DNA of 35,333 nucleotides from a virus. Below the pieces are notes generated by a model. That model was not told the origin of the DNA. It did not search any database and saw only the letters and a list, made by a program, of their open reading frames with translations. Each line of letters starts with the position of its first letter. The stretch's first letter is position 1. Location of the stretch: IMG/VR virus record IMGVR_UViG_3300033146_004589, positions 1 through 35,333 of that record; one strand, 5' to 3'. Positions 2,810 to 24,813 of this stretch are shown piece after piece. A program made the position numbers and the translations under genes.

Positions 2810-3037
2810 TTAGTTAGATTTTATGAATCTGAATTGCTTCATATATTCATTTTTTGTCCAGAATTCCATTCTTGTATTTTTTACAAGTGCCTTTAATCCT
2901 TTATCGGTTCCTGTAATAGTCTTATTTACCCTATCAATTTTAAATATTTCTTGAATATCCTTGAAGATATAATAATTAGAATTTTTAAAAACGTGAAGGT
3001 AATAATTCTGATTACTGTCTAATTGAGATTCCGTCAT
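2810..3037 (-). CDS. Hypothetical protein (75 aa)
   Basis: 75 residues, rich in Tyr, Phe, Asn and Lys, with no recognised motif. It is the last gene of the leftward cluster and ends at the bidirectional terminator. Its start touches the stop of the frameshifted gene at 3037, consistent with coupled translation in an intact ancestor. Confidence 0.5.
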   Translation of the reverse strand: MTESQLDSNQNYYLHVFKNSNYYIFKDIQEIFKIDRVNKTITGTDKGLKALVKNTRMEFWTKNEYMKQFRFIKSN

Positions 3038-3509
3038 TAGTATAATTTAGTTAGCGTATCTGTTCGAGAATCGTAAATTGGAGTTTGAATAATTTCAATA
3101 ATATTATTAATGCTAGCTCTGGCATCAGTTAATTTAGTATTTGTAGTATCTACAAATGACGATAAACTATCAACAGCATGTTTAAGATGTTTGCTTATTT
3201 CAAGCGTCTGATCTTGTAGTAACATTACTTTACTTTCGAGTTCAAGCACCCTTACGCTTAATGCGGAATTTACATCATGAATATCTTTGATAGCTTTAGA
3301 TTCAATTTGTTCAATAGAAGTTTCTTCAAAGAAAAATTGAATATCAACAATAGTTCCTGTAGCGCCTAGCCACTCGTTTAAAGATGGATGAAATGTCGCT
3401 GTAGAAGTATCAGGTATGCCAGCTCCTAATCTACCATATAGATAGTTGGTTCAATGCAATCTGGCTTATATTTAGGGAATTCTTTTTTAACTAAGATTGT
3501 TTCTGTCAT
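3037..3509 (-). pseudogene. Hypothetical gene broken by a single-base frameshift
   Basis: An ATG at 3507-3509 opens MTETILVKKEFPKYKPDCIEP, which then reaches a stop about seven codons later. A second frame, with no start of its own, continues from the same place as NYLYGRLGAGIPDTSTATFH and runs uninterrupted to 3037, ending in a coiled-coil-like region. The span is 473 bases; one added base near 3450 makes 474, or 157 residues plus stop. The shift falls in GAACCAACTAT. Possible causes are a real one-base deletion, an assembly error, or recoding; no classic slippery heptamer is present at the site. Function unknown. Confidence 0.65.
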
Positions 3510-3914: not shown

Positions 3915-4538
3915 TTATGGTCCAAAATAGAAAGTTCCATCATTCATATCAACCTCGTCTCCATTAGCAATATTAAAACATAATGTTGCTAGATTGGAAG
4001 TGACTTGTTTATGCATGTCTACTTTCTTAATAAAATATTTACTTGTTTGCATGTAAGTATAATCTTCTCCATTCTTTTCATATACTTCTACATACTTCTC
4101 GGTAGCGTAAAGAACATCCTCCCATGTGTATTCTGGATACTCCAGGAAGAACCATTTGAATCTTTCGAATAGTTCTTTAGGGTTAGTTTTAAAATAGACT
4201 GTAGATCCTTTTTTCTTACCTTTAGGAAACATATCGTTGAATCTAACAATATGATGCTCCCATTCTTCAAATGGAACCTTTGGTTTCGATTTAGATTTTG
4301 TCATCTTGAACATTATGTCACTACATTCTTTTATGAGATGTTTACCTTTCTCTGTAAGTTTGTATTCATATGTTCCTTTTTTTGCTTTTTCAAGATATCC
4401 TGTAATCTCAAGACGGTGTTGTTCGTGTCTAAAATTTACAAAATTCGGATATCCATACTTGCTAAAAGTAGCATTAAGCACAAGTAGTCCATTGGGAGTT
4501 ACTTGATTTGTAAACAAATGATCATATAATTTTCTCAT
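3915..4538 (-). CDS. Winged-helix-like DNA-binding protein (putative)
   Basis: 207 residues. Residues 1-75 read like a winged helix: a helix (MRKLYDHLFT), a helix with NGLLVLNATF, then HRLEITGYLEKAKKGTYEYKLTEKGKHLI, where the 'L.i.GYLek...YkLTekG' pattern is typical of transcription-factor-like winged helices. The C-terminal part has many aromatic residues (WFFLEYPEYTWEDV). It may be a regulator or a replication-associated DNA-binding protein. Fold call is by pattern only. Confidence 0.5.
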   Translation of the reverse strand: MRKLYDHLFTNQVTPNGLLVLNATFSKYGYPNFVNFRHEQHRLEITGYLEKAKKGTYEYKLTEKGKHLIKECSDIMFKMTKSKSKPKVPFEEWEHHIVRFNDMFPKGKKKGSTVYFKTNPKELFERFKWFFLEYPEYTWEDVLYATEKYVEVYEKNGEDYTYMQTSKYFIKKVDMHKQVTSNLATLCFNIANGDEVDMNDGTFYFGP

Positions 4539-4599: not shown

Positions 4600-4634
4600 G
4601 GTAAATTACCCTCCTCGCTTTATTGCAAGGAGGG
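4600..4634 (-). terminator. Two mutually exclusive hairpins in the gap downstream of the DUF932-like gene
   Basis: The palindrome GGGTAAATTACCC (4600-4612) overlaps a second hairpin formed by CCCTCCT (4610-4616) and AGGAGGG (4628-4634). They share CCC at 4610-4612, so only one can form. Both are much more GC-rich than the surroundings. For leftward transcription no good T tract follows, so this may be a processing, attenuation or weak termination element rather than a standard terminator. Confidence 0.45.
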
Positions 4635-4643
4635 TTCCTTAAT

Positions 4644-5726
4644 TTACATAGCATCTTTAGATGTTCCAAAATCAGAAATTGTATCTTTTGGCATAGTTAA
4701 ATCTTCTACCTTTAAATCTTCATTAGCTAATTTGCTTTCTGATTCATCAGCATATACACAACCGTCAATTTCAGCATGAAGTTCATCAAGAGATTCATTT
4801 GTTGAAATTATCTCATCCTCAACTAAGTCTGTAAATTCTACATCTTTTAATTCTTTGCTAGGATCAGACGGATCGCATATTGTTTTTTCGAAAATAATAT
4901 CTTCTGGAGATTTTCCTTCAGATTTTTCGAAAAGACCTCCTGACTCTTCTAAATCAGAAGCGTCAGCTTTACTATCAAAAATAGGAGGAAATACCAATAA
5001 CTCATCAAATGTTTTATGTAAAGCAATTTGATCATCCATCCATGTAGCAGGTCTTGATTCTTTAAGAGATAACGATAATAGATTATAAAAATCAAAAGCT
5101 GTAATATTTACAAATGTCCCACGTTCTTTCTCGAATGATTTAATATAATCTTTCATCGCTACTTGAATCACATTCATTTGAAGCGTATTTAACACTTCTA
5201 AATCAAAGAATAATTTTCCTGTTATAATATGCCTGTCAGAAGGAGATAAAACAACTGATTTAAGAAAATTTTTATGAGAAATTAAAGTACTCCAATAATC
5301 ATCAGAATCTTTAAGCACCTCAGAAATATTTCCATGAGCTAAAATATTAGCTTTCCCTTTATGAACTCTTTTGTATTTACTGAAATTATCATTACTAATG
5401 ATAAGACCAGCATCTGTCGAATTAAATCGAGCGCCTAAATTGAATCTAAATGCATATTGTTTATTGTAGGAGTTTACAAAATTACAAGTTAGCGATATGT
5501 CATCGTCAGCTTTATAATTTAATTTAAACATGCCTAATGCAACTTTACCATCATTAGATGACTTATACTGTTCATCTGTGATTTTGTAACCAGCGAGCTT
5601 TATTTCGTTTCTTATTTGACTTATTATATCCATATGCGCTATTGGAGTATAAGTTTTTGTTTTCTCTGGTAACGAAGCTGTCATAATTTCACTGAATGCT
5701 TCCATTCCATTTTTTGATCTTTTCAT
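4644..5726 (-). CDS. DUF932-like phage protein with acidic C-terminal tail
   Basis: 360 residues. The first ~250 residues recall the DUF932 family of phage/plasmid proteins of unknown function: PIAHMDIISQIRNEIKLAGY near the N-terminus, then a strand-rich core with FRFNLGARFNSTDAGLIIS, then helical segments. Residues about 255-360 are acidic and low-complexity. It lies 11 bases downstream of the polymerase gene. DUF932 proteins often sit beside replication genes, which suggests but does not show a DNA-related role. Family call is tentative. Confidence 0.55.
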   Translation of the reverse strand: MKRSKNGMEAFSEIMTASLPEKTKTYTPIAHMDIISQIRNEIKLAGYKITDEQYKSSNDGKVALGMFKLNYKADDDISLTCNFVNSYNKQYAFRFNLGARFNSTDAGLIISNDNFSKYKRVHKGKANILAHGNISEVLKDSDDYWSTLISHKNFLKSVVLSPSDRHIITGKLFFDLEVLNTLQMNVIQVAMKDYIKSFEKERGTFVNITAFDFYNLLSLSLKESRPATWMDDQIALHKTFDELLVFPPIFDSKADASDLEESGGLFEKSEGKSPEDIIFEKTICDPSDPSKELKDVEFTDLVEDEIISTNESLDELHAEIDGCVYADESESKLANEDLKVEDLTMPKDTISDFGTSKDAM

Positions 5727-8743: not shown

Positions 8744-9793
8744 TTACAATACTAATTCGTGATTTTCATTAATCAAGAAATTGTAAGGAAGAGAAAAGTC
8801 TTTTTTGTCAAAGTGAAATTTAGCTTCTTGAATTACATTATTAAGCTCAAGTTTCCATTTAGCCATAGTTTCATCTGATATTTTAACAATTCCAGTCTGA
8901 CCATAAGTATCAACGATTATAAATCGATAAACAATTTTCCAATCTTTATACTCTGGTAATAAACCATAATTATCAATTACCATATTATGATACATGGCAG
9001 CTTGAATCCAATACTTATAAAATTCAATAGTTTCTGCAATAGTAGAAATAGATTTCTGACTTCTTTTTAAGTCATTGATTCTAATTTCTTTTTTAGATGG
9101 ATCAAATACAAGATTATCAATAATACCTCTTAAATTAAAAGGAAGTTCTTCTTTTATTTGAACAAGCACAACTTCATTAATTTTACTAATTCCATTCATG
9201 GAATCAGCGAAAAATCCCATAATCTCCATTACTTGAGGATTACTTTTTACTTTTTCTACTGCTTCTTTAATGAAATCATAAGTATCAACTGAAATTATTG
9301 TCTTGCCTTCAGCCTCTTTAAGATAACTCCAGTAATCATTATTGTCTTCAGTAAGAATTTTCTTTAATCTTCCTTCGTCTGTTTTTAACGATTGATACAG
9401 ATTAATTTCAGATAAATAAGAAAGGATATCGGTATCGTAATCACCTAATTTTGTTCTTGCAGTTTCAGTATCTTCTTCCATATCCATTTTATACAACTCG
9501 AACACGTTGTAAATTAGTTTTTTCTGACTATCACTAGGCATTTTTGTACTCGCCATAATATATTCATCATCGAATCGCTCTGGCGTAAGCAGTAAACAAT
9601 GTAATAAACTACCCTCGATCATTCCGTCAGTTTGAGTATCCTCTCTCTGATTTAGAATATAATGCCTATAAAAAGCATCCGGGCTATATAATAGTTTGTT
9701 TATCCCTGAATAGGATAATAAGAATGGTGTAGAAAAGAATTTATCTTCTTTTTTCATTCTGTCTCCATAATTTAGAGCTTCAAATTTCTTCAT
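8744..9793 (-). CDS. PD-(D/E)XK nuclease, RecB/Cas4-like (DUF3799-type)
   Basis: 349 residues. The N-terminus has the pattern of phage RecB-like nucleases (SYSGINKLLYSPDAFYRHYI, then EGSLLHCLLLTPERF with H65). The catalytic core is LRGIID with D226, then INDLKRS giving D241-x-K243, and the helix QAAMYH (Q264...Y268). This order H...D...DxK...QxxxY is that of RecB-family exonucleases. No cysteines for a Cas4 iron-sulfur cluster are evident. Likely role: DNA end resection in phage recombination or replication, together with the Sak4-like ATPase. It overlaps the GIY-YIG gene by 14 bases. Confidence 0.82.
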   Translation of the reverse strand: MKKFEALNYGDRMKKEDKFFSTPFLLSYSGINKLLYSPDAFYRHYILNQREDTQTDGMIEGSLLHCLLLTPERFDDEYIMASTKMPSDSQKKLIYNVFELYKMDMEEDTETARTKLGDYDTDILSYLSEINLYQSLKTDEGRLKKILTEDNNDYWSYLKEAEGKTIISVDTYDFIKEAVEKVKSNPQVMEIMGFFADSMNGISKINEVVLVQIKEELPFNLRGIIDNLVFDPSKKEIRINDLKRSQKSISTIAETIEFYKYWIQAAMYHNMVIDNYGLLPEYKDWKIVYRFIIVDTYGQTGIVKISDETMAKWKLELNNVIQEAKFHFDKKDFSLPYNFLINENHELVL

Positions 9794-10247
9794 TCTCTCT
9801 CGATTTTACTGGTTTATTTTCCATGTCTTTTCTAAAATATCTACTAGCAATGTTTCCATTATAAGTATCATTAGCAAGTACATCATATTTCATTTGCCAT
9901 TTAAGCTCTATAAAAGTGAGATACTTTTTGTTGCTGGCAAATTCTATGATAATTCTTTCGAAATTATCAACACCATATTTTTTGATGTCTTTTTTTAGGT
10001 CTTCTGATGAACCGTAATATTTTTTCCAGTTAGTCTCAGTAACTGTATGCTTGAATGTTTTTCTAGTTTTTGTAAGGGCTTTCTCTCGTTTACCAATACG
10101 TTTTTTTCTAAAACTTAAAACATTCTTTTTGCCAACGTAGAACTTTTTAGTTTTGTTGTTTACAATAACATACGCGAATCCCATAGTGCCTTTAGGCATA
10201 TCCTCTAAGTTCACGATTTCTTTGCTCTCGAATCTCCAATTCTTCAT
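9780..10247 (-). CDS. Free-standing GIY-YIG family nuclease
   Basis: 155 residues. The N-terminal GIY-YIG module appears as GFAYVIVNNKTKKFYVGKK, followed by many basic residues and then WKKYYGSSEDLKKDIKKYG and IELKWQMKYDV, whose Glu fits the metal-binding Glu of the family. The organisation matches Seg-like free-standing phage nucleases rather than intron-encoded ones: no intron elements surround it and it overlaps both neighbours, its 5' end running 56 bases into the primase gene. Mobility or recombination-related cleavage are both possible. Confidence 0.75.
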   Translation of the reverse strand: MKNWRFESKEIVNLEDMPKGTMGFAYVIVNNKTKKFYVGKKNVLSFRKKRIGKREKALTKTRKTFKHTVTETNWKKYYGSSEDLKKDIKKYGVDNFERIIIEFASNKKYLTFIELKWQMKYDVLANDTYNGNIASRYFRKDMENKPVKSRENEEI

Positions 10248-18406: not shown

Positions 18407-20614
18407 TTAAAGAGTAATGGTTTCTTTAATCATTTTGTCTATTTTAGTAGACATGTAATTCGCTAATGTTCTAGGTAATTCTGAAATATTTGTCATTTTA
18501 ACAAAATAATCAAACATTTCTGCCGAAGGAACACTTTCCTCAATAGCAATTTGAATTATCTGAAAACCTAAAGCTTGAGCTTGAGTAACTCTTTCTCTGG
18601 TATCTCTAATTCCTGAAGATCCTCCATATCCACTAGCAGAAGGCTGTCCGTCAGATAGTACAAACAGGATGCCGGGATCCTGATTGAATTTTCTAATACG
18701 TTTTGCTGTAGCAAGAATAGCTAATCCATCACGATTCTGAGAACGAGCTGTAATAGAGCCAAGCGCATGAATATCATTTTGAAATCCACGCTCTTTGTAA
18801 ACTCTAATTACAGTTTCGTTACTATCGAAAATATGTTCATCCCCAGTATGTCCATAGATGAATAATTCAACATCATTCATTTTTCTGAAGATTTCATTGA
18901 TAAATATAGCGGCTTCTCTCGCTTTATCTATTGGCGTACCATTCATAGAACCTGATTCATCAACAAGAACTCCTACTAATACTTTATTAGTAGAAACAGT
19001 CGATATTCTCTCGTAAACTGTTTCAACACCTTGAATAGCTTCAGCAATTTTAGTCCCATCTAATCGACCAGACTTCATGCCTTTCATGGCGTAATCATAG
19101 TGTTTAGATTTACGTTCAAACATAGACCTGATAACTTGAGCTTTAGTAAAATCAATACGATCTCTGGTTTTCTCATATCTCAATTTATTAGTTTCTGATT
19201 TCTTAAAGAAAACAGGAGAATAACTAACTCCAACCGTAGGTACGTATTCATGCTCAATATCGGTAGGATCTTTATCTTCTACCATTTCCTCCTTGAAATC
19301 CTCAACATCTTCTTCTGTAACGCCTTCCATGTCTTCAGCATCATCAATATCTTCAAGCATTTCTTTAGCGAAATCATCAAGATCTTCTTTCGGAAGAGGT
19401 TTGTCTTTGTAATCGAAACCTTTATCTCCAGAAGGCTCTCCATCTTCAGGCGTATCATCACCGGAATCTTCAGGACTGCCAGAGTCGTAAGATTCAGGCT
19501 TTTCTTCCTCATCTTCTTTCTCATCATCACCTCCAGATTCAGATTTATCCTTATCTTCTTCTTCAGAAGAATCAGATTCATCTTCAGATTTCTCATCTTC
19601 CTTCTCCTCTTTCCTCTCTTCCTCCTCTTTTTCATCATCAGATCCGCCGCCAGATCCAGTTCCTTCTTCAGATTCATCATCTCCAACTTTAGATTTAGCA
19701 ACACCATCACCAAAACCTTTATCGTCTTCGTCTTCAGCGTCATCTCCTCCTGAACCTGATGATGGTGGCGGAGGTGGCTCTTCTTCTACAGGTACATATT
19801 TGTAAACTATATTAGAAAAACTTTTAGCCATAGAATCACATCCTGCTTTCGAACTAGGTATTCCATCGAATTTTTTAAGAGCTTTTTCCATCTTTTTGAT
19901 TGGCTCCTTAAATTCCTCAAGCTCCTCTTCTGTAATATGATCTGGATAACGAATCATTCTGGTTATTAAATCCATTAACCTCTTTTGAGGGTGTTCGCTA
20001 GGATCTAACGGTTCGTAATTCTTATCGTAAGTATAATCTTTAAATTTCTGAACAAATTTAGAGTAACCAGGGAATCGAGATGCGATTTTATCATTAATAC
20101 GTTCTGTATTAATAACTTCGCTAAGTAATGATTTTACCCCTTTCTTCTTTCTAGACCTACCTCTTCTTTCGTCCATCATATCCCTATACTCTCCTGCTGA
20201 TTGCATAGATATTTTTCCAGCATTTTGGATACAAGCACCATAGAAAGCATCAAGCTTATCCATTTCCTTGATATCTGCCCATGTTCCTGTTTCCTCATCC
20301 TTTAGAATACCTAATGGTAATGTAATGATGTTGGAAGTTTGAGAAACAGCCCCTTTTCCCATTTTGTCAGAAAGTTTTTTGCTCGCTACCCTTGTATGTT
20401 TATTAACATCCATCACAGAAAACATAGTACCAACCATTTTGGCTGATTCTTTCATTGACGCATTTTCGCCAATCATGAAAGAAGAAAGATGCTTTCTGCC
20501 TTTATCCCAACTGAAAGCTTTGTTAGTATTATCTCTTTTGATATAACTATCTTCTGCTCTTCTTCCGAACCAGTCTTTAGCGTATTGCCCTGGTTTTAAT
20601 CGTTTCTTTGCCAT
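18407..20614 (-). CDS. CobT-like VWA-domain protein with long acidic linker
   Basis: 735 residues in three parts. Residues 1-270 are basic and helical. Residues about 275-460 are a low-complexity acidic stretch rich in Glu, Asp, Ser and Pro, as in CobT. The C-terminal VWA domain (about 535-735) has an intact MIDAS: DESGS (D552, S554, S556), a middle NRDGLA segment, and LSDGQP (D655). CobT pairs with the AAA+ ATPase CobS in cobaltochelatase, and MoxR ATPases pair with VWA proteins generally. The same operon encodes a MoxR-like ATPase, so the two likely form a chaperone or remodelling complex. No cobalamin genes are present, so a cobaltochelatase role is unlikely. Confidence 0.85.
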   Translation of the reverse strand: MAKKRLKPGQYAKDWFGRRAEDSYIKRDNTNKAFSWDKGRKHLSSFMIGENASMKESAKMVGTMFSVMDVNKHTRVASKKLSDKMGKGAVSQTSNIITLPLGILKDEETGTWADIKEMDKLDAFYGACIQNAGKISMQSAGEYRDMMDERRGRSRKKKGVKSLLSEVINTERINDKIASRFPGYSKFVQKFKDYTYDKNYEPLDPSEHPQKRLMDLITRMIRYPDHITEEELEEFKEPIKKMEKALKKFDGIPSSKAGCDSMAKSFSNIVYKYVPVEEEPPPPPSSGSGGDDAEDEDDKGFGDGVAKSKVGDDESEEGTGSGGGSDDEKEEEERKEEKEDEKSEDESDSSEEEDKDKSESGGDDEKEDEEEKPESYDSGSPEDSGDDTPEDGEPSGDKGFDYKDKPLPKEDLDDFAKEMLEDIDDAEDMEGVTEEDVEDFKEEMVEDKDPTDIEHEYVPTVGVSYSPVFFKKSETNKLRYEKTRDRIDFTKAQVIRSMFERKSKHYDYAMKGMKSGRLDGTKIAEAIQGVETVYERISTVSTNKVLVGVLVDESGSMNGTPIDKAREAAIFINEIFRKMNDVELFIYGHTGDEHIFDSNETVIRVYKERGFQNDIHALGSITARSQNRDGLAILATAKRIRKFNQDPGILFVLSDGQPSASGYGGSSGIRDTRERVTQAQALGFQIIQIAIEESVPSAEMFDYFVKMTNISELPRTLANYMSTKIDKMIKETITL

Positions 20615-20616
20615 AA

Positions 20617-21093
20617 TTATTTATTTAGATAATTAATAATTTGAACTGTATTTTGCATTTTATCAGCCATATATTTCCCTAAAGCTGTACTCATAAGATT
20701 AGAATGAGGAATAATCCCAACTCTTAAAAGATCTAATCTATCAGCATCTAAACAAGCTCCAATAGTAGGGTTTTCTGAAATAACATCTTGATCATGTAAT
20801 ATACATGCAGATACCAATATTCCCATCTGCTCTTGAGTTAATCCTAATTCAAGATTAACTATAAAATCAGCAGCTCTTGAACCATGCCCTTTATCAGCGC
20901 CATCATCTTCTCGTTTACAATCATGCAATAACGCAAATGCTGTAACAACATCTTTGTCTACATGTTCGTCTTGATTTGCGAGTATCATGGCGTTATCTAA
21001 GACTCTCAACCAATGCACTGTCCCATGATGAGACATTGCATTTAGCTGAAATTCTTTTACGCTTATTAAAATTAATTCTTCTTTGGAAATCAT
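20617..21093 (-). CDS. HD-domain phosphohydrolase-like protein
   Basis: 158 residues. The HD pattern is complete: H23/H27 in SHHGTVHWLR, H57-D58 in LLHDCK, H70 in KGHGSRA, H100 in ILHDQD and a late Asp in CLDADRLD (D116/D118). This is the metal-binding layout of HD hydrolases acting on nucleotides or phosphoesters. Its ATG overlaps the stop of the ATPase (TAATG), and the VWA gene starts 2 bases downstream, so all three are translationally coupled. Substrate unknown. Confidence 0.8.
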   Translation of the reverse strand: MISKEELILISVKEFQLNAMSHHGTVHWLRVLDNAMILANQDEHVDKDVVTAFALLHDCKREDDGADKGHGSRAADFIVNLELGLTQEQMGILVSACILHDQDVISENPTIGACLDADRLDLLRVGIIPHSNLMSTALGKYMADKMQNTVQIINYLNK

Positions 21094-21587
21094 TAATAAG
21101 CGCTTATAATTGATAGAACTTTACTTCTTTCAGAAACACCTATTCCATCTTGGAATAATGGCATTATTGTAGAAGTCATAGCTTTATTTAGATCAAAACC
21201 ATCGTAGATTAAACTTGAAACCTGTAAACAGTGCCTGATAGAGATCGCATTACTCAATTCTTGAGATTTATGCTGCTCTCTAATTTTATTAGCTACCCGA
21301 ACTACTGATCTGGCTTTATCTTCATCCACTTTGGTTCTGTTTACTAAAACTCGAACCTCATCATCTTCAGGAAGATAATCTAATTCAATTGGAAAGAATC
21401 TGTCTAATAAAGCTCTGTCTATCTGTTGAGTACCAGAATACTCTGATCCAATATTAGCAGTAGCGATAAAGGCAGTTTCTTCATGAACTGGGATTTGACG
21501 AGCAACATCCTCTGAAGCAACATCAATAGGTAAATATCTTCTCCTATCTAAACATGGGAAAAGAATATTATTACTAGCAAGGGAGGA
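21093..21587 (-). CDS. MoxR-like AAA+ ATPase, exon 3 (residues 262-425)
   Basis: The third exon begins directly after the terminal G of intron 2 and continues the frame from R261 as SSLASNNILFPCLD. It carries sensor 1 (FIATANIGSEY, N305), the arginine-finger segment QQIDRALLDRFF (R324) and a sensor 2-like SIRHCLQ. The pattern GTQQIDRALLDRF is close to that of CobS/MoxR ATPases. An open frame with a TTG start exists from 21590, but it is an artefact of the intron end (ATTG). The exon is useless without splicing since Walker A and B lie upstream. Confidence 0.85.
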   Translation of the reverse strand, partial: SSLASNNILFPCLDRRRYLPIDVASEDVARQIPVHEETAFIATANIGSEYSGTQQIDRALLDRFFPIELDYLPEDDEVRVLVNRTKVDEDKARSVVRVANKIREQHKSQELSNAISIRHCLQVSSLIYDGFDLNKAMTSTIMPLFQDGIGVSERSKVLSIISAY

Positions 21588-21627
21588 CAATTTATTATTT
21601 ACATAGGTTCTTTATCCTATGCTTTCT
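21588..21627 (-). repeat. 40-nt intron 3' end shared by both introns (copy 1)
   Basis: This segment and 23041-23080 agree at 39 of 40 positions (one C/T difference). It forms the terminal hairpin and the 3' splice boundary of each intron; the exons diverge directly at its edge, which is how I set the splice sites. Confidence 0.9.
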
Positions 21628-21852
21628 GCAATTTATATTAGATTATTTTTGCAGATTAGACTATATCATTAATAACCTTTAAGTATTGATATACATAAGT
21701 TATTATTGTGCGCTCGTGGTAATTTACCGTCTTCAACATCACTTGTTAAGACTCCATTTACTAGTCGTTGAACCTTGATTATATTTCTATAATCCTTGGC
21801 TGCTGATTGACCTTCTCAGGCTTTTCCAGCAATTCACACAATTTTAAAACCG

Positions 21853-22776
21853 CTACTCCCTATATTTGTAAAATGAGCCTTTATAGCTCTCCTTTTTATT
21901 ATTTAATACTTTATATACCGTTCCTGGAGAAATATGTTTAGATTTACATAAATCAGTAATAGAGTCCCATTCGAGTTCTATACCTTCATTTGTGATTTCT
22001 AAAATTCCTCTTTTCTTTGGTTTTAATGGTATTAATAAATCATTCTTATCAATAGCAAATCGATATCTATTTTTTAATAGATGTCCTTTTTTTTTGCATA
22101 TTGATGAAATACTAGAACATAAACTGTCAAATTTATCACCTTCTTTATAAAGACTCCTTGCTGCATTAGCTATATTTTCGTATTCAGAAAAAATATCAGT
22201 TTGAGTATCGAGCATATAAACCGAAACCCATTTCCACTTACTTCTTTTAAGATTGTAAGTTTTCATTATTTTATCTTCATAACTCCATAAATAACCTCCA
22301 GCAGACAATAATTTACCATTACAATTTTGAATAATACTACTCGCCATTATTTTAGTTTGTCTTTGAGCTTCTTTTGTAGAAGGGTAATTGTTTATCTTAT
22401 GACCATTTAAGTCATATTGAAAAACTTTTTTACTTTGACTATCAGAATTAAATTGAGTTGTAGGATCCTGCTTAAAATTAGCAATAGGCCCAAGTAAATC
22501 AATCCATTTTTTTTCAAGTTTTAATAAATCTTTATATTCGGTATTGATATCAATTGTTTCTAATATAGAAAACCAACATTTATCTTTACCATACTTATTA
22601 AAAGTTCGTTGTAATCTGATATTTACGTGTTTATTTTTAATTAATGAATTTTTATGTTCAGATAGTCTTGTTTTTACATCAACAGAACTTCCAACATAAT
22701 TAATTTCATTAATTTTAATATAATATATTCCAGAAGCCCTGGTTATATATTTAGTATTTTTGAATAAAGGAAACAT
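21853..22776 (-). CDS. GIY-YIG homing endonuclease of intron 2
   Basis: 307 residues from ATG at 22776; nine more codons to a TTG are open but unlikely. The GIY-YIG domain is near the N-terminus: SGIYYIKINEINYVGSS followed by VKTRLSEH with the conserved Arg, then a helix with FNKYGKDKCWFSILE. The middle has a NUMOD1-type DNA-binding segment (VFQYDLNGHKINNYPSTKEA) and further helix-turn-helix-like repeats. It would cut intron-less alleles of the ATPase gene. Its stop codon TAG shares its G with the internal guide sequence of the intron, so the gene occupies the P1 loop. Confidence 0.85.
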   Translation of the reverse strand: MFPLFKNTKYITRASGIYYIKINEINYVGSSVDVKTRLSEHKNSLIKNKHVNIRLQRTFNKYGKDKCWFSILETIDINTEYKDLLKLEKKWIDLLGPIANFKQDPTTQFNSDSQSKKVFQYDLNGHKINNYPSTKEAQRQTKIMASSIIQNCNGKLLSAGGYLWSYEDKIMKTYNLKRSKWKWVSVYMLDTQTDIFSEYENIANAARSLYKEGDKFDSLCSSISSICKKKGHLLKNRYRFAIDKNDLLIPLKPKKRGILEITNEGIELEWDSITDLCKSKHISPGTVYKVLNNKKESYKGSFYKYRE

Positions 22777-22837
22777 AGCTGTATAGTTTGTATAAAAATA
22801 CAACTATTAGTTCAATTTAACAAACATTTTTTATTTA

Positions 22838-23040
22838 ACGGTTAATTTCATCAAGAAGAACAATTCCTCCTCCTTTGATACTGCTAACAAATGGAGCGTA
22901 TTCAAATACAGAAGCTCCTTCTTTAATTCTATGCACACCAAGTAATGATGATTGAGCGTCGAAAATAGTTCCCATATCCTGAATAGAAAGTTCTCTTTCC
23001 ATTGTTTTAGAAACAAGTTCTACTAACTCAGTTTTTCCTG
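22838..23040 (-). CDS. MoxR-like AAA+ ATPase, exon 2 (residues 194-261)
   Basis: 203 bases lying between the two introns. It begins with CA, completing a split codon, then GKTELVELVSKTM (the GKT of Walker A, K196), and ends with GGGIVLLDEINR, the Walker B motif (D257, E258). It has no start codon of its own and, in the genomic reading, runs into a stop right after the exon. It is coding only in spliced RNA. Confidence 0.85.
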
Positions 23041-23080
23041 CAATTTATTATTTACATAGGCTCTTTATCCTATGCTTTCT
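23041..23080 (-). repeat. 40-nt intron 3' end shared by both introns (copy 2)
   Basis: Second copy of the segment at 21588-21627, 39 of 40 positions identical. The flanking core sequences of the two introns are related but far more diverged, so this end is either under strong constraint or recently exchanged. Confidence 0.9.
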
Positions 23081-23353
23081 ATAACTTTCATTATAGTTTA
23101 GACTATATCTTCATCTCATCTTTTAAAATGAGAGCAGGACACTCGTGGATATATTATATTCTATATTTCTATAGTTTCAATATCTAGTCGTTGAACCTTC
23201 ATGTGTTTTTACTTCACATGCTTGGCTGCGGATCACCCATTGGCGAATCTTCAGAGTTCTTACTATATCAAACACGTTACTGTTTGCCCTTATCCATATC
23301 ACTATGATAAGTTAGTATCTGAAGCTTTAGGGACTCCCCGCAATTCATCCTGT

Positions 23354-24169
23354 TTAAAGTGAGCTAGGTATAAATCTATAATCACCTATAATTACGTTTG
23401 TTTTTTTAAATTTTTTATGAAAATAACTTCTACTAAAATTTAAAAAGTCACAAACTTCTTGTACACCACAAAATTGTTTGATTTTTTGTGTTTTTACATT
23501 TTCAATATTAAATATTATTCTTCGTTTCTTGATTTCTTTAGGATATACAGCTTTTTTACGGCTATATTTCTTGATAATTCTATCAGAATCAGAATATTTA
23601 ATTTGATAATTTTTAATACTTTTTCTATCTCCATGAGCAGCTCTTGTAACACTTCTTACTGAAGCTTTTATTTTTTTAGCAAACTCTGTGGCTGATTTAT
23701 AATTATTTATAAAATTACCATCTAAATCATAAACTTCAACTTGTTTATTAGATGCGGATTCGTGTGTTTTATGATATTCTGTAACTATTTTACTAAGCTT
23801 TCTTTTAGTTTCAATAGATACTTTTTTATTTAAACCACCATCTCCTTTATCATCTGAATTAACAAGATTAAATTTATTTTTATATTTGAAAATTAAAGAA
23901 CGCTCTAAATTATGAGACTCTTTCCATCCTTTTACGGTAGCAATTTTCCTTATCATCGGTTCTCTTCCTTGTTTAAGGATTGAGTTTATCCAATTTATTC
24001 TATAAGGTTGTTTTTTACCAGGATAATAAACATTAAAATATCGAGCTTTTGTAATATGCTCAATTAATCTATGCTTTATCTCTTTTTTAGACGTTCTTCC
24101 TATGTATCTTATTTTACAATCTTTAGGATCGTATAATACATAGATATGTACAATTTTATTAGTATCCAT
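23354..24169 (-). CDS. GIY-YIG homing endonuclease of intron 1
   Basis: 271 residues. The GIY-YIG domain opens the protein: HIYVLYDPKDCKIRYIGRT then IKHRLIEHITKA with the conserved Arg. A NUMOD3-like stretch (VSIETKRKLSKIVTEYH) and a NUMOD1-type helix-turn-helix (VEVYDLDGNFINNYKSATEF, then VRSVTRAAHGD) follow, which bind the target DNA. It differs clearly from the endonuclease in intron 2, although the introns end alike. It begins 64 bases inside the intron and its last codons (SSL, stop) overlap the candidate guide sequence. Confidence 0.85.
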   Translation of the reverse strand: MDTNKIVHIYVLYDPKDCKIRYIGRTSKKEIKHRLIEHITKARYFNVYYPGKKQPYRINWINSILKQGREPMIRKIATVKGWKESHNLERSLIFKYKNKFNLVNSDDKGDGGLNKKVSIETKRKLSKIVTEYHKTHESASNKQVEVYDLDGNFINNYKSATEFAKKIKASVRSVTRAAHGDRKSIKNYQIKYSDSDRIIKKYSRKKAVYPKEIKKRRIIFNIENVKTQKIKQFCGVQEVCDFLNFSRSYFHKKFKKTNVIIGDYRFIPSSL

Positions 24170-24233
24170 AGTAATATAATTTATTACTAAAATACACTTA
24201 TTATAGGACTATCACAAATTTATTTTTAAGCAA

Positions 24234-24813
24234 TCCCACTAGGTCCTGTGATTAATGAATTTTCTCCTCTCAAGATGTTTCGAATAAGTAAAAACCATAC
24301 ATCAGGTTCGATATGAAATCCACAATCTTCCAATGAAGGTGCTGGATATTTCATAAGGATACTTCTTTTTAATGAAGACGCATCACTTAAATCAACTTCT
24401 TTAACTGTAGTTAATTCTTCCCAATCATAAGTATATCCATAAGTAGCAAATTGATCTGCTATTTTCTGAATATAATCTTGTTTATATACAGAAGGGTTTT
24501 CCAACATATAAACAATAGTATATTGACATATTTCTTGAAGTTTATCTTCATCAATACTTGTTAATGGGAATACCGACTCATTATAAAATAAAGGAATTAA
24601 ATCACCTGCTCTTACATTGAATGTATCAGGTTCTGGTTGATCGTGATCTATAGCAATAAAAATACTTTCTACTGGACTTTTTGCACATTCTGAAATAGGA
24701 CCAGTAACGCTTATATCTTCTAAATCGTATCCGGTGTCAGTTATCACGGCTTGATATGCTAAAGGTTTTAATTTATAAACAGCCTCTTCTATCTTTGTTT
24801 GTATTAAAAACAT
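24234..24813 (-). CDS. MoxR-like AAA+ ATPase, exon 1 (residues 1-193 plus one base)
   Basis: ATG at 24813. The exon encodes an acidic N-terminal domain of about 180 residues, unusually long for MoxR, then ENSLITGPSG, the first half of Walker A. Read through into the intron it would add only Ile-Ala before a stop at 24226. With exons 2 and 3 the coding length is 580+203+495 = 1278 bases, exactly 426 codons. The closest functional analogues are CobS and MoxR ATPases that act with VWA proteins; the partner VWA gene lies downstream in the same operon. Confidence 0.85.

Follow-up and report, generated by a model that had tools for sequence, protein, structure and literature searches.

Two group I introns, each with a homing-endonuclease-type gene, at the nucleotide-binding motifs of a phage AAA+ ATPase gene

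In this study, we describe an ATPase gene that is divided by two group I introns at the codons of its two nucleotide-binding motifs. The gene lies on the minus strand of a 35,333-base virus record, which was analysed over its full length and is referred to here as the window (Table 1). Each intron carries a homing-endonuclease-type gene, and we consider it highly probable that both introns are mobile elements that excise and restore the ATPase, splicing being what we infer from the intron anatomy described below.

Table 1. Coordinates of the ATPase locus and its intron features in the window.
Feature	Position	Strand	Remarks
ATPase exon 1	24234..24813	-	ends within Walker A, after GPSG and the initial A of the following codon
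ATPase exon 2	22838..23040	-	end of Walker A to Walker B (LLDEINR)
ATPase exon 3	21093..21587	-	runs to stop codon
Intron 1, group I, 1193 nt	23041..24233	-	within Walker A codons; RF00028 75.4 bits; same site in L037
Ribozyme core, intron 1	23079..23399	-	Rfam RF00028 75.4 bits, E 1.3e-17
P10 strand UAUACCUA and internal guide GCUCACU, intron 1	23358..23372	-	overlaps last HEG1 codons
HEG1, intron ORF of 271 aa	23354..24169	-	NUMOD1 and diverged GIY-YIG-like N terminus; in P1 loop
HEG1 promoter TTTG-N20-TATTTTAG, Bacteroidota-type, predicted	24187..24218	-	23/1000 shuffles as good
HEG1 hairpin, predicted	24162..24195	-	-7 box region with start codon region; z -0.85 (weak)
Intron 2, group I, 1250 nt	21588..22837	-	directly after Walker B; RF00028 66.7 bits; same site in L045, L046
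Ribozyme core, intron 2	21649..21880	-	Rfam RF00028 66.7 bits, E 5.3e-15
P10 strand AGGGAGUA and internal guide GCGGUU, intron 2	21848..21861	-
HEG2, intron ORF of 307 aa	21853..22776	-	GIY-YIG and NUMOD1; in P1 loop
HEG2 promoter TTTG-N20-TATTTTTA, Bacteroidota-type, predicted	22793..22824	-	20/1000 shuffles as good
HEG2 hairpin, predicted	22775..22807	-	-7 box with start codon; z -1.7
VWA/CobT-like protein	18407..20614	-	phrog_17276 CobT, E 1.7e-8; two genes downstream of ATPase

Joined at the intron borders, the three exons form a frame of 1278 nt, encoding 425 amino acids and a stop codon, in which the motifs GPSGTGKT (Walker A), LLDEINRSSLASNN and LLDEINR (Walker B) are regained. The initial annotation had proposed this join with both motifs restored, and its coordinates prove right to the base; the span 21588-24233 that it gave for the introns agrees with the limits in Table 1. 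The joined product matches AAA_5 (PF07728, 68.3 bits), CbbQ_C (PF08406, 38.7 bits) and PHROG 249, and the profile of its family matches midasin, NorQ, CbbQ and CobS in the PDB. With AAA_5, CbbQ_C and both Walker motifs present, the joined product is a ring-forming AAA+ ATPase of the CbbQ/NorQ/CobS type within the MoxR clade. The VWA/CobT-like protein, whose Pfam matches to VWA and CobT_C fall slightly under the cut-off, is its likely partner, so that the locus resembles the AAA+/VWA pairing of this clade. Relatives of the ATPase are found in Bacteroides phages and mostly in Bacteroidales MAGs, an origin that fits a Bacteroidota host for the window phage, as we infer.

The intron cores, already recognized in the initial annotation as two group I elements on the minus strand, both score above the gathering score of RF00028 (50), a model of the conserved P3-P9 core. 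Both introns terminate in AAATTG and thus carry the terminal G of group I introns. Inteins also favour ATP-binding motifs, and two of them in a single ATPase are known from MCM (PMC10643990). Inteins or other protein-level insertions nevertheless have a negligible probability here: the reading frame meets a stop after two codons of intron 1 and immediately on entering intron 2, and group I cores were found instead, so this reading is refuted by the stop codons together with the ribozyme cores. The final 39 nt of both introns (23041-23079 and 21588-21626, minus strand) are identical at 38 of 39 positions, while the cores share 64% overall. We regard this as a sign of recent conversion between the two introns. 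An exact match to the common 3' end was sought in other viral contigs and none was found.

The pairing of each internal guide with its exons supports both splice sites. In intron 2, the exon sequence AACCGU pairs with the guide GCGGUU at all six positions of P1, with a U.G pair at the splice site, and UCCUCCCU pairs at 7 of 8 positions with the P10 strand AGGGAGUA. In intron 1, AGUGGG pairs with CUCACU and P1 positions -2 to -7 are fully paired, yet the last exon base is an A that faces the guide G (A.G), so that the U.G pair at the 5' splice site is absent; P10 is weak, and at +1 a C stands opposite an A. The A in place of U, which was missed in the initial annotation, is found in intron 1 alone, all six other introns examined having U at -1. 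A U.G pair at the 5' splice site is near-universal in group I introns, although it is not an absolute criterion. Among 40 loci, the guide of intron 1 nevertheless finds its best P1 fit in its own exon (6/7), and compared with the guide of the intron in L037 (P1 7/7, P10 7/8) there is a compensatory G-C/C-G difference at -6; taken together, these two observations indicate that the site assignment is sound. Alternative joins of intron 1 with U at -1 were rejected, as they break the frame, alter the length of Walker A or leave an intron that does not end in G.

The A at -1 could reduce splicing, be tolerated or reflect an assembly error, and together with the weak P10 it means that intron 1 may splice poorly. 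A stronger version of this idea is that splicing of intron 1 is impaired in this phage, a T-to-A change (Ser to Thr codon) having broken the U.G pair, with the consequence that little full-length ATPase is made or that rescue by the host or phage is needed. The A.G and C.A oppositions, set against the U of the six other introns, speak for it, but we consider it rather unlikely: exons 2 and 3 remain open, with good conservation (66% to L033 over residues 165-425), HEG1 is intact, P1 is otherwise fully paired, and a single base could be an assembly error. Moreover, Thr is normal at that residue in other homologues; of the rows of the family, 21 have T at -1, 16 have A and 3 have G, so the Thr codon is unremarkable for the protein. 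It is far less likely still that the gene is broken, with dead introns and three segments that are pseudogene fragments or separately translated pieces. The unusual A would fit such decay; however, the three open segments join in frame at exactly the positions predicted by the guides, with the catalytic motifs preserved, guides and exons show covariation, and a fragment lacking Walker A or Walker B would be unable to function by itself.

Two functional introns remain our preferred reading, and homologues of the gene place them as the initial annotation did, within Walker A and directly after Walker B. In L003 and L004 the full 425-residue frame is uninterrupted (53 and 51% identity, respectively, over residues 1-425). 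Together with 34 more loci they make up the 36 of 40 family rows that are contiguous across both intron sites, in a comparison that includes some near-copies. Other relatives are occupied. In L037, an insert of 1128 nt with a 90.9-bit group I core lies in Walker A, precisely at the junction of residues 193 and 194, and its ORF is 53% identical to HEG1. Right after Walker B, L045 has an insert of 1055 nt (group I, 84.2 bits) whose ORF shares 52% identity with HEG2, and in the same place L046 has an intron of 341 nt without ORF (79.5 bits), an allele shared by L047 and L048. The same intron site is thus filled in some relatives and empty in others, as in homing introns. In the ATPase tree, occupied loci stand beside uninterrupted sisters (L037 with L003/L004, L045 with L036/L038, L046 with L032/L034), which, for the few occupied rows, is the pattern to be expected of homing and loss. 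Since introns of other phages occupy these positions to the nucleotide, the Walker A and Walker B sites appear to be recurring homing sites and not a quirk of one genome, in line with the earlier suggestion that mobile introns target conserved codons. Among the alleles seen, that of the window is the only one with both sites filled.

Judged by their sequences, both intron ORFs resemble DNA-cutting homing enzymes. HEG2 combines a GIY-YIG domain (PF01541, 31.4 bits with a cut-off of 22.6) with a NUMOD domain (PF07453, 32.1 bits). HEG1 matches NUMOD1 (34.9 bits) and has no Pfam match to GIY-YIG at E 10; by eye, its N terminus shows IY...YIG, an Arg and a Glu, which the ORF of L037 retains. Profile comparison ties HEG1 to HEG2 through the NUMOD1 part. 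A search for relatives with HEG1 only gave none, with L037 added it returned only the contig of L037 itself, and a PDB search did not place HEG1. Both ORFs fill the P1 loop: HEG1 ends in codons that make up the P10/guide sequence, and the HEG2 stop codon provides the first guide base. Elsewhere in the window (9780-10247, minus strand) there is a free-standing SegE-like GIY-YIG endonuclease (PF19835, 87.9 bits).

Both ORFs are preceded, at 17-18 nt from their starts, by sites that score 9/10 (one mismatch) against the pattern TTTG-N20-TAnnTTTG. Nine sites on the minus strand reach this score, and only these two are at most 150 nt away from a listed start. A 10/10 copy, again spaced by 20 nt, is present in L037; the promoter-like site of L045 is no better than chance. 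A hairpin is predicted that has the -7 box in its 5' arm and a 3' arm extending to or abutting the start codon; the start would then be masked on a long pre-mRNA but not on an internal transcript. As the hairpins exceed shuffles only modestly in stability (z -0.85, -1.7 and -2.15), we put forward promoter/hairpin control of HEG1 and HEG2, as in T4 I-TevI, as a hypothesis. A copy of the homing site in the promoter, as in the I-TevI operator, was not significant for the window introns. Only L053 was notable: in the promoter spacer of its ORF (3920-3933), 13 of 14 nt equal the reverse complement of the Walker B-site exon (8/1000 shuffles as good), recalling the I-TevI operator, which copies its own homing site.

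Relatives of HEG2 also occur in a different AAA gene. In L009 and L053 (L052 is apparently the same allele as L053) they lie inside group I introns at 3022-3259 (71.9 bits) and 4626-4924 (78.8 bits), respectively. Both introns were missed in multi-locus Rfam scans and found singly, so absence in batch scans is not evidence. With splice points that rest on the reading frame and guide pairing by eye, the introns of L009 and L053 stand two and one codons, respectively, after a DDWNR Walker B motif. In L009, the AAA gene adjoins a DUF2201 VWA protein; introns of the HEG2 lineage are thus placed zero to two codons past Walker B in two different AAA/VWA gene pairs. We tentatively raise the possibility, doubtful as it is, that an intron-endonuclease lineage tracks the protein motif and jumps between distantly related ATPases by recognizing Walker B codons. 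The placement could also be coincidence.

In the mechanism that we propose, the internal guide of each ribozyme would form P1 with the last bases of the upstream exon and P10 with the first bases of the downstream exon, and the ribozyme would excise itself, restoring the CbbQ/NorQ/CobS-type ATPase. In co-infecting phages with an intron-free allele, each endonuclease would cleave this allele at the Walker A or Walker B codons, after which recombination would copy the intron in, as homologues and distribution suggest. Transcription of the endonuclease genes probably starts at Bacteroidota-type promoters of their own within the introns, and a hairpin formed only on the long pre-mRNA probably hides the ORF start codon. 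This would keep ribosomes off the guide sequence, so that splicing is not blocked, as in T4 td/I-TevI.

The T4 system is similar in that a GIY-YIG endonuclease ORF lies in a group I intron and overlaps ribozyme elements at its 3' end, and in having an intron-internal promoter beside a hairpin that covers the ORF start (PMC2988022; PMC3073962), the latter features being no more than predicted in the window. Loss of the I-TevI hairpin harms td splicing (PMC2988022). In contrast to td, where the overlap concerns P6a/P7, the window ORFs lie in the P1 loop and overlap the guide/P10; also, the promoter is Bacteroidota-like and the host gene encodes an AAA+ ATPase. Phage genes with two or more group I introns are known from Staphylococcus phage Twort (PMC3073962) and from the rNDP reductase and terminase of Bastillevirinae (PMC11878797). 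Here, unlike in those phages, the introns interrupt an AAA+ gene at its two nucleotide-binding motifs, each site being singly occupied elsewhere. Exon skipping occurs in such genes of Twort (PMC3073962) and Bastillevirinae (PMC11878797), and the near-identical intron 3' ends could favour skipping of exon 2 in the window; as this exon measures 203 nt, its loss would shift the reading frame. In haloarchaeal MCM, which is also an ATPase, neighbouring conserved sites are likewise occupied by two mobile elements (PMC10643990); these are inteins, which act by protein splicing, and the window elements would act by RNA splicing. Partial literature searches returned no related report for MoxR with a group I intron, and nothing usable on natural splice sites other than U.G.

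Both multi-intron phage genes and homing sites in conserved motifs are thus of a known kind, to which the arrangement at two motifs and the recurrence of it add good new examples. The arrangement given in the initial annotation is confirmed, but its description there as a striking case is a little strong in view of the multi-intron genes already known. It also took the introns to imply that the ATPase is important to the phage; their position hints weakly at this, because the persistence of conserved codons as homing targets is no test of essentiality. For annotation, gene callers will list such an intron-split ATPase as separate fragments. The family offers a natural series of alleles for two homing sites of one ATPase, with the sites empty, one of them filled, both filled, or filled by an intron that lacks an ORF, and this series makes the homing cycle and the interference between neighbouring introns testable. 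In addition, a natural A.G splice-site pair becomes available for ribozyme biochemistry, and T4-style promoter/hairpin control of intron ORFs is suggested to exist with Bacteroidota-type promoters too.
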